49,620 bases of DNA from Psychromonas sp. psych-6C06 (GTDB lineage Bacteria; Pseudomonadota; Gammaproteobacteria; Enterobacterales; Psychromonadaceae): assembly GCF_002835465.1 (NCBI RefSeq), contig NZ_PIZM01000010.1, positions 1-49,620 on the forward strand, written 5' to 3'. The notes beneath the pieces are model-generated. The model did not search any database, was not told the origin of the DNA, and was given only the letters and a program-made list of their open reading frames with translations. A program made the position numbers and the translations under genes. Shown here one piece after another: positions 31,658 to 37,089 of this stretch; within the stretch, counting starts at the first letter, position 1, and each line of letters starts with the position of its first letter.

Positions 31658-31673
31658 CTGTTGTTTTATACAG
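31658..31673 (+). promoter_or_regulatory. LexA box of sulA
   Basis: CTGTTGTTTTATACAG matches CTGT-N8-ACAG exactly, with an AT-rich centre as in strong SOS boxes. It stands 35 bases before the sulA start and should overlap the promoter. It supports damage-inducible control of sulA. Confidence 0.9.
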
Positions 31674-31708
31674 TGTTTTTACATACAGTAAAGTTAAGGT
31701 GGTTATTT

Positions 31709-32125
31709 ATGTTATCTCGTTTTCAGCAACAAGCAAGCAACGCACTATTTACTATCAATGGTTCAGTGCAACAGCAAGTTCATCACAATGACAGATTAAC
31801 GTTAAGTTACGACTTAAATAACTACCAAGCACTACTAAGTCATCTTCAAGAAAGCGATGATCCACGTTGGATCTTGTTTATTGCGCCACCTGGAAAGCCT
31901 AACTTTCAATTTCTACAGCAGGCAGGCATCAACAAAAGCCGCATCATCACCCTCAGTTCAAAACAGATCAAAACACCAGAGAAATTATTTAAGGAGGCAT
32001 TAGCGAGTAACAACTATGCGGCGGTTATTCGTTGGGTGAATAGTGGTGAACAGCCATCGGTTGATGAGGTAAATCAATTAACAGAAAGATCTAAAACGCA
32101 CTGTTTTGTTTATTGTGCACAATAA
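31709..32125 (+). CDS. sulA: SOS-induced cell division inhibitor SulA
   Basis: The protein has 138 residues with ATG 31709 (AAGGTGG 7 bases upstream); the longer frame from 31661 would run through the LexA box. The segment RWILFIAPPGKPNFQFLQQAGI and the later NNYAAVIRWVNSGEQPS align with SulA-type RecA-like folds. SulA binds FtsZ and blocks division during DNA damage. The exact LexA box upstream supports this name better than sequence alone. Whether it is unstable and removed by Lon cannot be seen. Confidence 0.85.
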   Translation: MLSRFQQQASNALFTINGSVQQQVHHNDRLTLSYDLNNYQALLSHLQESDDPRWILFIAPPGKPNFQFLQQAGINKSRIITLSSKQIKTPEKLFKEALASNNYAAVIRWVNSGEQPSVDEVNQLTERSKTHCFVYCAQ

Positions 32126-32403: not shown

Positions 32404-32436
32404 AGATAAGCAGTAAACCTCATTCACTGCTTATCT
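32404..32436. terminator. Bidirectional hairpin between yaeP and the copper chaperone gene
   Basis: AGATAAGCAGT and ACTGCTTATCT form an 11-bp perfect stem with an 11-base loop, between two convergent genes. T-rich flanks lie on both sides, though the T runs are not clean. Confidence 0.75.
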
Positions 32437-32452
32437 GATCTTTCATCTGATA

Positions 32453-32926
32453 TCAATCATGATGATGTCGATGTGCTTTATCCTCTACAGCCACCTCGAT
32501 TTCAACTTCACCGGCATGTTTGAAATTTAAAACCAGTGGAAAACGGGCACCCGACTTAAATCGCTTAGCTGGCCCAAATAGCATCAAGTGTAAACCGCCA
32601 GGCTGTAACAGCGTCAGTCGTTTCGCTTTAATACTCAATGATTCGAGCACTGGCATGGTTACTTTTCCATTGACCATTTGATGTGTATAAATACCAACCT
32701 TATCAGCCAGCGGACTGCTTGCAGAGAGTAAGACATCTGCATTTTTTCCACGGTTTTTAATTTGCATATACACAGCTAATACTTTGCTATTTGGCGCTGT
32801 TTCAGGGCTCCAAGGATGGTCAATATTAATTGAACCCAAGCTATAATCGTGCGCATAGCTTTGAGAAGTCAATATCGCACCCATCAACAGTAACATCCAT
32901 TTTATTAAAAGAGCACGATTTACCAT
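32453..32926 (-). CDS. PCu(A)C-type periplasmic copper chaperone
   Basis: The protein has 157 residues. ATG 32926 (AAGGA upstream) gives a signal peptide ending near SQSYA. The Cu(I) site signature H-x-M…M…H-x-M is present: IYTHQMVNGKVTMP and LQPGGLHLMLFG. The tail HRHHHD adds further metal ligands. Family members deliver copper to the Cu-A or Cu-B centre of cytochrome oxidases or hold copper in the periplasm. The start overlaps the stop of the barrel gene by 7 bases (ATGGTAA). It is the last gene of the MbnP/MbnH operon, so it may receive copper from that system. Confidence 0.9.
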   Translation of the reverse strand: MVNRALLIKWMLLLMGAILTSQSYAHDYSLGSINIDHPWSPETAPNSKVLAVYMQIKNRGKNADVLLSASSPLADKVGIYTHQMVNGKVTMPVLESLSIKAKRLTLLQPGGLHLMLFGPAKRFKSGARFPLVLNFKHAGEVEIEVAVEDKAHRHHHD

Positions 32927-34044
32927 GATAATTTTCCTTGATACACCATCCAAAAGGCGGTTTCACTTTCTTCACTGAGTTGCTCAAAATTAGCTTGTAA
33001 GCGAAGCATCTGATACTTAGCAAACGACCAATTAACCACAGCACTTAATCGACTTGGGTTATGCCCGCGACTATTAAGCACTTGTGCAAAGTCATTACTG
33101 TTAATGCTGAGTTTGTTGTGGGAATTTAGCCAATCGTAGCGAATTGCCGTTTCTACAACGTTCCACTGCCAATACCACTCACTACTAATACCATAGTAGC
33201 GAGCAGATATATCAGCTTGTAACTGTAGCGAATCAACTACCCCTCCTTCAACATCCGCGATCATCGACTCAACTTGCCAACCTCCTTGTAAATATTGCCA
33301 CTCTGCCCCAAGTGTTAATAAAGTGGTTTCACCGCTGAGGCTAAGATTAACCTGATCGGCATTATGGTGATCACTATTACTATTATCACGCTCAGTAGCA
33401 TTAAATTGACTTAGTGAATTATTGAGTAAAAAACTACTTTCAGTACCTAGCCACAACCATTGCCAACCTAATCCATAGGCATTTGGCTTAGCGCTATCTG
33501 GATTCACGGAACTTGGAAAGTTAGCCCCTCTGCCAATCCAAGTAAACAGTTCCAAATCACCCATATTGTAATTAACGGATACAGCATCATCGGTATATTG
33601 CCCACCTAAAAACACGGTTTGTGACAAAGTTGCATCAATAAATCGCCATTCATGATCATGAATAGCATTGTACAAACCGATATTAGCAAGTTGCCGGCCG
33701 AACCGAATTTGCCATTGCTGACCCAACCAAGGCTGTAACCAGAGTTCTTCAATTTCAGGAGATTCAAGGCCATGAGACCCGATAATAATATTTCCTGAAA
33801 GTACCTCCTCAATATTTCCCCATAGTGCCAGTTCACCATGAAAAAGTTGCACCCCTGAATCATGGGGCTGACTTTCTCCTCCGGTAATAAAACCAGGAAT
33901 CTGCCAGCTTTGCTGCTCAGTACTTTGTTGAAAATATCCAAATTGAGCAAAAATACTTGCCTGCCAATCAGTGCTTTCTTGTGGCTGTTGCGCATGAGCA
34001 AAAAATGGCCACACCAATAACATCATTAAACTATTTTTAATCAT
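32920..34044 (-). CDS. Outer-membrane beta-barrel protein of the Mbn-like copper operon
   Basis: The protein has 374 residues. A signal peptide (MIKNSLMMLLVWPFFAHA) precedes a sequence of alternating hydrophobic residues rich in Trp, Tyr and Asn, as in porin-like barrels. The segments WQIRFGRQLANIGLYNAIHDH and LELFTWIGRG are like those of phosphate- or short-chain-selective porins. It ends in an aromatic residue (YQGKLSW), expected for BamA-dependent barrels. The start overlaps the end of the di-heme enzyme gene by 8 bases (ATGATTAA). It may let copper or a copper complex cross the outer membrane, but the substrate is not shown by the sequence. Confidence 0.75.
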   Translation of the reverse strand: MIKNSLMMLLVWPFFAHAQQPQESTDWQASIFAQFGYFQQSTEQQSWQIPGFITGGESQPHDSGVQLFHGELALWGNIEEVLSGNIIIGSHGLESPEIEELWLQPWLGQQWQIRFGRQLANIGLYNAIHDHEWRFIDATLSQTVFLGGQYTDDAVSVNYNMGDLELFTWIGRGANFPSSVNPDSAKPNAYGLGWQWLWLGTESSFLLNNSLSQFNATERDNSNSDHHNADQVNLSLSGETTLLTLGAEWQYLQGGWQVESMIADVEGGVVDSLQLQADISARYYGISSEWYWQWNVVETAIRYDWLNSHNKLSINSNDFAQVLNSRGHNPSRLSAVVNWSFAKYQMLRLQANFEQLSEESETAFWMVYQGKLSW

Positions 34045-35203
34045 TATTTACTTCATTTAAAAATGGGTTATTAAATCGAGGATTAGCGACAAAAGCATGG
34101 TCAGTTAACGCGGTTAAGAATGCGATTAAATCGGCCTTTTCTTGCTCTGATAACGAAAAACCATTCACAAATTCACTTTTATTCGGGTTATTTCGCCCAT
34201 CTCCAATAAACTCACCCTCTATAATATTTCGTCCTCCCTGCGCATAAAATGCCAGCACTTCATCAAGTGTAGCGATACTGCCATCATGCATATAGGGGGC
34301 TGTTAAGGTAATATTCCTGAGTGTAGGGGGTCTAAACTTGCCTTTATCTCCAGGTTGTTGGGTCACTTCAAATAATCCGTTATCGATAGCTGGGTAGCTA
34401 CCCTCCTCATCTAAGTTATATAAACCAGTATTAAAAAATGGTCTACTGACAAAAACCGTATCTTCATGCAAAGTAGAGTCAGTAAAATTAAAACCACTAT
34501 GACAATGAAAGCACTCCATTTTCTCACTGTTGAATAACGCCTGACCACGCATTGCCGATGAACTCATTTCACCACGATCAAAATCAGAATCATTAGAAAT
34601 AAGTGCACGATTAAATACCGCTAACGATTTAATGATATTAGGCAGTGAGATTGGCGCATCCTGATTAGGAAACGCTAAATTAAATCGCTGCACATACTCA
34701 TTATCATCTTTAAAACGCGATAAAATAGCTTCTTTATTACCATCATTGATGCCAAGTTCAACTGGAAATTCGCCAAACATGGGGATCACAAGCTGAGATT
34801 CGATATGCTTGAGGACAGGATTTGACCAGGTATAAGTCGCGTTATAACCCACGTTAGTGAGTGTGGACGCATTACGGCTTAATAGATCACCGGTAGAGCC
34901 TATCGATTGCACCTTTCCGTCAGTAAATGCTAAGGATTGAAAGTGACAGGATTCACAGGATTGTGTTTGATTACCTGAAAGACGTTTGTCATAAAAAAGA
35001 TGCCTCCCTAACTGAAATTTTGCTTCTGTTGCTTTATTATCTTCTGGCTCATGTGGCTCAGGAAAAGCACCATTCAAATAATCAAAACCTTGATCATTTG
35101 TGCTACTCACTGGTGCAACCTCATAATGAGATTCACTGTCACAACCCGCGAGGTAAAACCCCGCGGATAGTATCAGCAAACAGATTTTATACTGCGCTGA
35201 CAT
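34037..35203 (-). CDS. MbnH-like di-heme enzyme (MauG / cytochrome c peroxidase family), lipoprotein
   Basis: The protein has 388 residues. ATG 35203 (GGAG 8 bases upstream) gives a lipoprotein signal with lipobox LAGC, so it is membrane-tethered in the periplasm. The two heme c sites are CESCH (83-87) and CFHCH (231-235). The MauG-type segments RPPTLRNITLTAPYMHDGS and LDEVLAFYAQGG follow. The family partner MbnH modifies a tryptophan of MbnP to kynurenine for copper binding. Here an MbnP-like gene ends 5 bases upstream, which supports that role over plain peroxidase. Activity is inferred. The longer frame from 35245 lacks a signal at its start. Confidence 0.9.
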   Translation of the reverse strand: MSAQYKICLLILSAGFYLAGCDSESHYEVAPVSSTNDQGFDYLNGAFPEPHEPEDNKATEAKFQLGRHLFYDKRLSGNQTQSCESCHFQSLAFTDGKVQSIGSTGDLLSRNASTLTNVGYNATYTWSNPVLKHIESQLVIPMFGEFPVELGINDGNKEAILSRFKDDNEYVQRFNLAFPNQDAPISLPNIIKSLAVFNRALISNDSDFDRGEMSSSAMRGQALFNSEKMECFHCHSGFNFTDSTLHEDTVFVSRPFFNTGLYNLDEEGSYPAIDNGLFEVTQQPGDKGKFRPPTLRNITLTAPYMHDGSIATLDEVLAFYAQGGRNIIEGEFIGDGRNNPNKSEFVNGFSLSEQEKADLIAFLTALTDHAFVANPRFNNPFLNEVNND

Positions 35204-35208
35204 AGTGA

Positions 35209-36129
35209 CTACTCCACTGAAACCCATGACTGAAGCGCACTGCAATTACCATCAGTACATTCACCAGAGGACAACGTGAGCCCTAAATTGTTAAAAATAG
35301 CTTCACAATCACTGTCGTTACTACCAGACATACAACCTAATGGAGTGTTATCTGCGTTAACAGCTAAGTCACTATTTTCAACTAATTTTAAGTAATCTAA
35401 AACAATAGTATTATTAGCAGCATCAAAGTTATCTAATTGATAAGTTGGGCGATTACCGCGTGAATTAGCACAATCAACTGTTTCTGTTGCGGCATCTACC
35501 AATTCACAGCCCGTTGTACCAAGGTGCAGGTTCCAACCTTTAACATCCATACGCAGGTGTTTATGACCTTTTTGCCAGCTCCAGTTCATCCCCGTTACGT
35601 CAAGTGGAGAAACTGCATCATCTCCATCTATACCTAGATGATTTAATCCTACAGGTACACCGATTGTAAACTCCACACCGGTATAATCGCCTGCAGGTAC
35701 GGTACCAGAGACAACGTTATTTAGATCTGGATTACCATTTGAACAGCTGCCGGTTCCATTTTCAAAATCAAGTAAAGCGACTTCTTTATATTGCCATTTT
35801 TGATCATTATTCAACGTGACTGGTACAGAGTCCCCTGCACTATTAATAAGTGAAAATGATGAAACGTAAAGGCGCACATCTGTAAACTCAGGATTTACGT
35901 TACTGCTACCCGCAACAATACTTTCCATCTTTTCACAGGCAATATCTTCACTACCTACACGCGCAGCAAAATTAATTTTAATCTCTTGATCTAGCGTTTC
36001 CAGACTCTCTGCCAAAGCCTCTGTTAACTCAGGTTCAATAATACGATCAATTTCTGAGCTAGTTACACTGCTTCCACAACCAGCTACAAGACTCACTAAC
36101 ATTACTATTGCACTATTTTTATAAAGCAT
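35209..36129 (-). CDS. MbnP-like copper-binding lipoprotein (metallo-mystery pair type)
   Basis: The protein has 306 residues. A lipoprotein signal (MLYKNSAIVMLVSLVAGC) places it in the periplasm. Cysteines at 65, 129, 208 and 220, plus more near the C-terminus, fit the four-Cys pattern of the family. The core segment VPAGDYTGVEFTIGVPVGLNH is typical, as is MNWSWQKGHKHLRMDV. That segment has Trp183 and Trp185 next to His189 and His191, which are candidate modified or copper-binding residues. It is first in the operon with the di-heme enzyme next. In related systems the Trp becomes kynurenine. I infer the same here but cannot assign which Trp. Confidence 0.88.
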   Translation of the reverse strand: MLYKNSAIVMLVSLVAGCGSSVTSSEIDRIIEPELTEALAESLETLDQEIKINFAARVGSEDIACEKMESIVAGSSNVNPEFTDVRLYVSSFSLINSAGDSVPVTLNNDQKWQYKEVALLDFENGTGSCSNGNPDLNNVVSGTVPAGDYTGVEFTIGVPVGLNHLGIDGDDAVSPLDVTGMNWSWQKGHKHLRMDVKGWNLHLGTTGCELVDAATETVDCANSRGNRPTYQLDNFDAANNTIVLDYLKLVENSDLAVNADNTPLGCMSGSNDSDCEAIFNNLGLTLSSGECTDGNCSALQSWVSVE

Positions 36130-36550
36130 TTTTTCTTCCTTTAAATTGGAAGCCTAAAAGACGGCTTCCTCCCTACTATTCATTAGTAAAGATAAATATG
36201 AATTGCCATAAAATGGCCGTTGATGGGTGTTCAAAATCCGACTAAAACAATCTAAACATTACTAAGAAAAATAAATTTATTACTAGAAATTAAGTTAAGT
36301 AAATGGGGCTTTACCATTAAAAACTTATCGCTATGTAGTAAATTATTAAGTCCTTGAACAGAAACACTCATATTTCGGATTTATTATCAATCGAAGTAAA
36401 TATTTACGCTAAGTTTTGCTAGAAAAATAGATTTATTAAAAGCGAACGTTTTGTGAATCGTTCTTTGCTTTATAAAAATTCCAGCGAATTGTTAAGTTTC
36501 TTTAACTAACAAAATAGAGCAGTTATTTATTTCGTTTATATCGATACATA
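36130..36550. other. Intergenic region upstream of the Mbn-like operon
   Basis: 421 AT-rich bases hold no gene. They should contain the operon promoter near 36170-36400 and the end of the upstream DUF2946-like transcript. I searched by eye for a copper-sensor palindrome or Fur box and found none that I would defend. AAGGAAG precedes the mbnP-like start. Confidence 0.5.
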
Positions 36551-37000
36551 TTAAAAAGATATTGCAGGGGGAGATTGCTTAGGAGCAAGACTTAAATAGG
36601 ATTTTTGTGAAGAAATAGAAACAATGAAAATAGAAACAGCAAAACTATAGTGCCTCATCCAGCTAATCATTGCGGCAATAAATATCGCGAAGAAAATAGC
36701 TGGATACTTAAATGCTTCTAACAATGGGCATTGATATTTACTTATTTGGTGAGCGCTTTCAGATTCAGCTAGTAACTGGTTGTTTTGTTTGACAATTCGA
36801 CTCATGCTAACCCATTTAAACCCGTCCTCTGAACACACGAGCACCTTGTCTCCAAGTAGTTCAGAAAGCCAGTTAGGCTGTTGAATCGTATTAATGTTAA
36901 GTGTCAAAAAAGCAGATAAATAAATTTGAAATAAAACAGAGCAGATAGCAAAAATTGCGACCTGCTGTTTTATAAAATTATTTATCCATTTGTTTTGCAT
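36551..37000 (-). CDS. DUF2946-like small membrane protein
   Basis: The protein has 149 residues with ATG 37000 (GGTG 7 bases upstream); a start at 37018 lacks a ribosome site. Two hydrophobic segments (about 14-34 and 95-115) frame a periplasmic part with CSEDGFKWVSMSRI and a QCPLLEAF segment. The family usually has a Cys-Pro-x-Cys here; the second Cys is replaced by Leu in this copy. DUF2946 genes often neighbour copper genes, which fits its place upstream of the Mbn-like operon on the same strand. The function is unknown. Confidence 0.6.
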   Translation of the reverse strand: MQNKWINNFIKQQVAIFAICSVLFQIYLSAFLTLNINTIQQPNWLSELLGDKVLVCSEDGFKWVSMSRIVKQNNQLLAESESAHQISKYQCPLLEAFKYPAIFFAIFIAAMISWMRHYSFAVSIFIVSISSQKSYLSLAPKQSPPAISF

Positions 37001-37089
37001 AATATTCACCGAATCCATTCGCGCGAAATATTAGCAAAACCTTATATAAAATGTAACTACATTATGCAAATATTTAACAAACTATTAAC

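Follow-up and report, generated by a model that had tools for sequence, protein, structure and literature searches.

A putative methanobactin-independent copper-acquisition operon with a porin-like barrel in Psychromonas sp. psych-6C06

Overview

The way in which zinc and copper pass the outer membrane is not well defined. The stretch analysed here (hereafter the window) comprises 49,620 nucleotides (nt) of contig NZ_PIZM01000010.1 from Psychromonas sp. psych-6C06 and contains a putative minus-strand operon encoding a small leader protein, an MbnP-like protein, a di-heme MbnH-like enzyme, an outer-membrane barrel, and a PCu(A)C copper chaperone. Judged from sequence, this locus rather probably serves copper acquisition independently of methanobactin and has taken a metal porin into its operon. 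The barrel may in turn belong to a widespread, undescribed class of metal porins of the outer membrane that carry a His pair in the constriction loop, although the case for such a class is about evenly balanced; its members would provide TonB-independent entry of zinc, with ZnuA/ZnuB-like partners and a Zur or CxxC...RAPP-type leader control, or of copper, with MbnP, MbnH, PCu(A)C, and a divergent leader. The MbnP/MbnH pair and the PCu(A)C chaperone are of known kinds, and the novelty lies in a conserved cassette that includes a porin, in a porin family marked by an HxH motif, and in the split of this family between zinc-type and copper-type settings. The features, with lengths in amino acids (aa) and the evidence from open reading frames (ORFs) and searches, are as follows.

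36551..37018, minus strand: leader ORF, CruR/DUF2946-like, 155 aa (ORF list, nine aligned relatives)
36130..36550, minus strand: leader-MbnP spacer, 421 nt (RNA folding against shuffles)
35209..36129, minus strand: MbnP-like protein, 306 aa, lipobox Cys C18, WxW at W183/W185 (TIGR04052, PF20243, 7l6g)
34037..35203, minus strand: MbnH-like di-heme enzyme, 388 aa, internal ATG start (TIGR04039, 6e1c)
32920..34044, minus strand: outer-membrane barrel, 374 aa, predicted 16-stranded porin fold (AlphaFold model)
32453..32926, minus strand: PCu(A)C copper chaperone, 157 aa, internal ATG start, with a longer TTG start in the ORF list (PF04314)
32404..32436, minus strand: terminator-like hairpin 3' of PCu(A)C, 15 pairs, T-rich tail (pattern scan)
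31661..32125, plus strand: SulA-like protein gene (PF03846) past the operon end (Pfam)

The MbnP/MbnH pair and the chaperone

The preliminary description, made from the letters of the window, had proposed an MbnP-like protein paired with a di-heme MbnH-like protein, and both family models matched well over their cut-offs. The MbnP-like protein scored 278.4 bits with TIGR04052 (cut-off 140, E 4.9e-83) and 121 bits with PF20243 (cut-off 27), and its sequence matched PDB 7l6g (E 5.6e-39). W183 and W185, which form its WxW motif, were kept in 31/31 aligned MbnPs, comprising the window's protein, 7l6g, and those of 29/41 loci; the alignment did not include loci L191-L202, 12 in number and for the most part matching more weakly. 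The MbnH-like enzyme passed TIGR04039 (478.8 bits against 362.85, E 8.2e-144), matched PDB 6e1c in sequence (E 3.7e-107), and carries two CxxCH heme motifs (C83-H87 and C231-H235) together with a lipobox seen by eye. MbnH reportedly forms kynurenine on MbnP (Manesis et al. in 2021). The PCu(A)C protein passed PF04314 with 101.6 bits against 29.4 (E 2.9e-29) and displays the copper pattern HxM...M...HxM (HQM...M...HLM) and a His-rich C-terminus, as in its cassette relatives. The pair is conserved far outside methanobactin producers (PMC3621798).

Recurrence of the cassette

MbnP matches were found in 33/295 genomes of the order, and a phylum search (20/398) added 7, giving 40 genomes, all of which were inspected. 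The barrel gene lay directly behind MbnH on the same strand in 8/40 (the window, G069, G001, G111, G194, G827, G724, and G824), with PCu(A)C next behind it in 4/40 (the window, G069, G001, and G827). Two further MbnP-MbnH-barrel loci, in G368 and Vibrio sinaloensis DSM 21326, were reached via the barrel. All five genes occur in the same order in the window, two Moritella genomes (G069, which is Moritella sp. DT_65, and G001), and V. sinaloensis; because this order recurs in three other genomes, the arrangement is more than chance. The predicted co-occurrence of barrel and PCu(A)C with the pair was thus borne out, though in a minority of genomes. No leader was detected in six further genomes of the class, G111, G194, G368, G824, G724, and G827, where MbnP, MbnH, and barrel are present. 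Within the genus, sampling of at least 22 other genomes gave no MbnP match, so the cassette was either gained or often lost.

Several neighbouring genes were observed in these loci. A divergent gene for a protein of about 880-950 aa stands next to MbnP in 17/40 MbnP genomes (for example L042:7407-10154), and Pfam assigned LVIVD, Calx-beta, and PKD domains to the one member scanned. A DUF2282 (bufferin-type) gene follows MbnP-MbnH-barrel in G368 (L190:7038-7316), and an AhpC/TSA gene lies behind the same three genes in G724 (L187:10054-10764). G037 (L113:5269-7741) holds a decayed cassette in which leader and barrel are open, MbnP is gone, and MbnH is reduced to an 83-aa remnant; it was discarded as support for a unit of barrel and PCu(A)C, the PCu(A)C there being short too (127 aa).

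The barrel and its loop histidines

At E 0.1 the barrel had no match in Pfam or NCBIfam. AlphaFold modelling gave a barrel of 16 strands joined by short turns and long loops (pLDDT 79.6, pTM 0.79, loop L5 below 50), upholding the earlier suggestion of a porin-like barrel in the place of a TonB-dependent receptor. The closest folds by VIA-align were the phosphate and polyphosphate porins OprP/OprO, at 11-12% identity; the window's barrel differs from them in its L3 HxH and its metal-gene neighbours. A PDB sequence search with the barrel profile returned nine matches (best E 0.14), most of them aligning profile positions 232-271 with chain starts, which were taken as chance. TonB-dependent transporters combine a plug domain with a 22-strand barrel. 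Identity as such a receptor was ruled out by the size of 374 aa, the 16 predicted strands, and the lack of a Pfam match; one relative matched PF00593 under the cut-off (E 0.0089), and two ZnuAB-type relatives gave under-cut-off BBP2 porin matches (E 1.4e-4 and 0.036).

In 16-stranded porins, loop L3 is folded into the channel. From the order of strands in the model, L3 would span residues 120-150, and an HxH motif (H129 and H131) falls within it. The motif was found in L3 of 92/92 barrels outside MbnPH settings, 91 of them with ZnuA and/or ZnuB, and of 9/9 barrels close to the window's. Among six distant MbnPH-type barrels, one has HxH in L3 and all six have some His there. Loop L5 is His-rich in the window's barrel, with at least two His in 9/9 close, 6/6 distant MbnPH-type, and 54/92 non-MbnPH barrels.

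A wider, probably zinc-linked family

The barrel profile matched 108/369 genomes of the class and 55/295 of the order, weak and partial matches included, and 92 distinct barrels (from 74 class and 18 order genomes) were examined. Both ZnuA- and ZnuB-like genes lie downstream of 83 of them, one of the two in 7, MbnPH in 1 (G368), and neither in 1 (L162); Pfam confirmed ZnuA (PF01297) and ABC-3 (PF00950) in one representative locus. The preliminary description had remarked that the barrel seemed undescribed in a copper role; its family is not peculiar to that role. A quick tree was built from 107 barrels. All 92 rows from non-MbnPH settings grouped in one branch (support 99), and outside it fell 11 MbnPH-type rows and four database relatives without known context; the six distant MbnPH rows sit on long branches, and their placement is unsure. 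An ORF resembling an ABC ATPase by a two-motif pattern was seen near barrel-ZnuA/ZnuB in 1/63 loci with room, and none within 4.5 kb in 62/63 (L084-L103, L115-L172).

Small ORFs precede most of these barrels. Among 85 loci with room upstream, 52 have one with CxxC and a C-terminal [RKQ]xPP, 19 one with the PP end only, and 14 neither; 19 ZnuAB-type leaders, like the window's leader, lack CxxC. As a control, among 1572 other ORFs of these loci the double pattern occurred in one and the PP end in 19. The Cys-to-PP spacing is 49-52 in 51/52 of the CxxC...[RKQ]xPP leaders. PF11162 (DUF2946) gave five matches in 114 class genomes, three of them just upstream of barrel matches (G315, G383, and G406), all under the curated cut-off.

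A Zur-like box of the pattern TGTTATANTATAACA was found with at most two mismatches in 12/85 upstream stretches (up to 960 nt) and in 0/255 mononucleotide shuffles. In shorter stretches, the box occurred in 8/14 leaderless loci versus 3/71 with a leader (Fisher p 8e-6) and in 0/651 control stretches; this association test was devised after the first box result and related genomes are non-independent, so the p value is a guide only. Caulobacter Zur boxes resemble the pattern (PMC4176598). Six leaderless loci, including the MbnPH locus of G368, showed no Zur-like box, and a Fur box upstream of family members was no better than in shuffled sequence. Given this distribution of leader ORFs and Zur-like boxes, the larger branch probably serves zinc and is controlled in one of two ways, by a leader or by Zur.

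The leader ORF and the spacer

The preliminary description had called the upstream gene DUF2946-like. Part of this stood: a small leader comes first in the operon, it is followed by the 421-nt gap, and its Cys-to-PP spacing is 53 residues, compared with 51 from the positions given in PMC9426467. By eye, its N-terminal part includes a hydrophobic stretch, and it carries C62 and C97. However, CPLL, with no second Cys, stands where CxxC is expected (CP[LI]L in 9/9 aligned leaders), and its C-terminus reads QSPP where RAPP is expected (HSPP in 1/9). C62, C97-P, and SPP are invariant in the nine aligned leaders. Eleven homologues were found and six were aligned besides the window's; only that of V. 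sinaloensis was placed in genomic context. At E 0.1 neither Pfam nor NCBIfam gave a match for the leader, and none of the nine aligned members matched PF11162 at E 10. With hhalign, the leader profile aligned to one canonical DUF2946 protein, the single member compared, over 49 columns (E 5.5e-4, probability 30%), so the DUF2946 assignment is only suggestive. Comparison of window-type with ZnuAB-type leaders gave no match, leaving common descent of the two groups unsupported. On sequence grounds the leader is better described as CruR-like than as a CruR member. The spacer folds better than its shuffles (z -3.2), with a hairpin just 5' of the MbnP start, and has no Rfam match.

A proposed route for copper and its alternatives

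These results suggest the following route. Under copper scarcity, the whole operon would be expressed; with ample copper, the leader protein would bind the metal while still being synthesised and stop expression of the remaining genes, as CruR does. The porin would admit copper ions, with the histidines of loop L3 as the selective site. MbnH would oxidise W183 of MbnP to kynurenine, enabling MbnP to hold copper, and PCu(A)C would hand copper to cuproenzymes, most likely the cbb3 oxidase. The porin itself may have been recruited from a family in whose main branch the partners are ZnuA/ZnuB-like genes and the metal is probably zinc. Copper specificity, transport, regulation by the leader, the kynurenine, and cbb3 oxidase as the client are all steps that we infer from sequence. 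If the route is true, it shows how MbnP/MbnH proteins can work without methanobactin and without an adjacent TonB-dependent receptor.

Several observations weigh against copper acquisition. The leader lacks CxxC, RAPP, and a Pfam match and falls outside DUF2946/CruR by strict criteria, and no spacer structure or sequence signal common to relatives was found. No adjacent barrel accompanies MbnP in 32/40 genomes, and HxH is missing from 5/6 distant MbnPH-type barrels. The predicted position of L3 in the pore rests on strand order and general porin anatomy. Moreover, the larger branch looks zinc-linked from its Zur-like boxes, so belonging to the family is not enough to show that copper passes. 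Of the interpretation in the preliminary description, the pair, the porin-like barrel, and the co-occurrence therefore stand, while the barrel family is not specific to a copper role, most examined members sitting with ZnuA/ZnuB-like genes, and DUF2946 is suggestive at most.

Three other explanations were considered. The operon might serve copper protection, with MbnP as a copper sponge, the barrel as a pore that is unselective or leads outward, and PCu(A)C as a copper buffer; MbnP and PCu(A)C are copper-binding families by name, and the DUF2282 gene of the G368 operon and the AhpC/TSA gene of the G724 operon would fit. This account is unlikely, as neither an efflux pump nor a copper oxidase is encoded among the five genes, the partners of the barrel family are ZnuA/ZnuB-like genes, and the studied CruR operon is copper-repressed and encodes a copper importer (PMC9426467, PMC12914433). 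Quite unlikely, too, is a zinc porin placed in a copper operon by happenstance and having no copper role there. ZnuA/ZnuB-like neighbours of 90/92 barrels and Zur-like boxes upstream of 11/85 family members, eight of these leaderless, speak for it, but the MbnPH-type barrels lie outside the ZnuAB-type branch and are kept behind MbnH in several families, and the best site upstream of the window's operon has four mismatches, that is, no Zur-like box.

That the barrel conducts no ions and instead carries MbnP or displays it at the cell surface is very unlikely. The tight coupling of the MbnP, MbnH, and barrel genes is in keeping with such a role, as is the surface association of MopE of Methylococcus capsulatus, which is paired with a MauG-like protein (PMC3621798). 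Against it, 91/92 examined barrels have no MbnP neighbour and the fold matches diffusion porins.

Comparison with known systems

The window resembles the known MbnP/MbnH pair (TIGR04052/TIGR04039; 7l6g, 6e1c) in family scores, WxW, and the two CxxCH motifs, and differs in having no MbnB-family gene on the contig, a porin in the operon, and a leader ORF in front. With cruR-crtA-crpH of Bordetella pertussis (PMC9426467, PMC12914433, PMC13038864) it shares a small leader in first place, a long gap, an outer-membrane protein behind, and a copper theme, whereas it has a predicted 16-stranded porin for the TonB-dependent transporter, MbnPH and PCu(A)C for PepSY_TM, and CPLL/QSPP for CxxC/RAPP. Operons headed by CruR homologues with MbnPH-like or PcuAC genes are already in print (PMC9426467). 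CutF of Rhodobacter capsulatus, a DUF2946-type leader, also stands before copper genes; in response to copper it increases output from the following gene by way of a stem-loop (PMC9973294).

Among porins, RopAe of Rhizobium etli is porin-like, linked to copper entry, and upregulated at copper scarcity, but it belongs to Porin_2 (PF02530) while the window's barrel matches no Pfam family (PMC6011978). MspD of Mycobacterium smegmatis, similar to MspA (PMC13098993), and oprD in Zur regulons (PMC6103462) are porins tied to zinc supply, cited here for that link. A literature search for porins named as zinc porins found none, although MspD and oprD have printed zinc links. No description of the porin cassette or family was found in a search made mostly without subscription papers, and PMC12452194 makes no mention of MbnP, MbnH, MauG, porin, DUF2946, or CruR. 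Considering its conservation, its nearly invariant HxH, and its fixed place beside metal-carrier genes, the porin family makes the question of metal entry directly testable and offers a candidate answer to it.

Genomic setting and flanks

The genome has two PCu(A)C genes and no OprC-type receptor over the cut-off, with two weak partial matches. Its one COX1 match is taken as cbb3 oxidase subunit I and lies in a locus that reads by eye as cbb3 (cco) with a P-type ATPase. No MbnB-family gene lies in the operon, in line with the preliminary description, which saw no methanobactin genes: the only MbnB-family match (PF05114) in the genome lies on contig C2 beside DUF2282, as in bufferin operons, MbnA and MbnC having not been searched. 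The same contig (L209:4356-13001) carries bufferin-type DUF2282-MNIO-DUF2063 genes beside the COX1 gene and P-type ATPase.

The ORFs and coordinates confirmed the close spacing of the minus-strand genes and the 7-8-base overlaps noted at the last two junctions: MbnP and MbnH are 5 nt apart, MbnH and barrel overlap by 8, and barrel and PCu(A)C by 7. Terminator-like hairpin sites numbered 5 against 3.4 expected, so a match alone is weak. The G+C contents of the operon (0.388) and its flanks (0.394) are alike.

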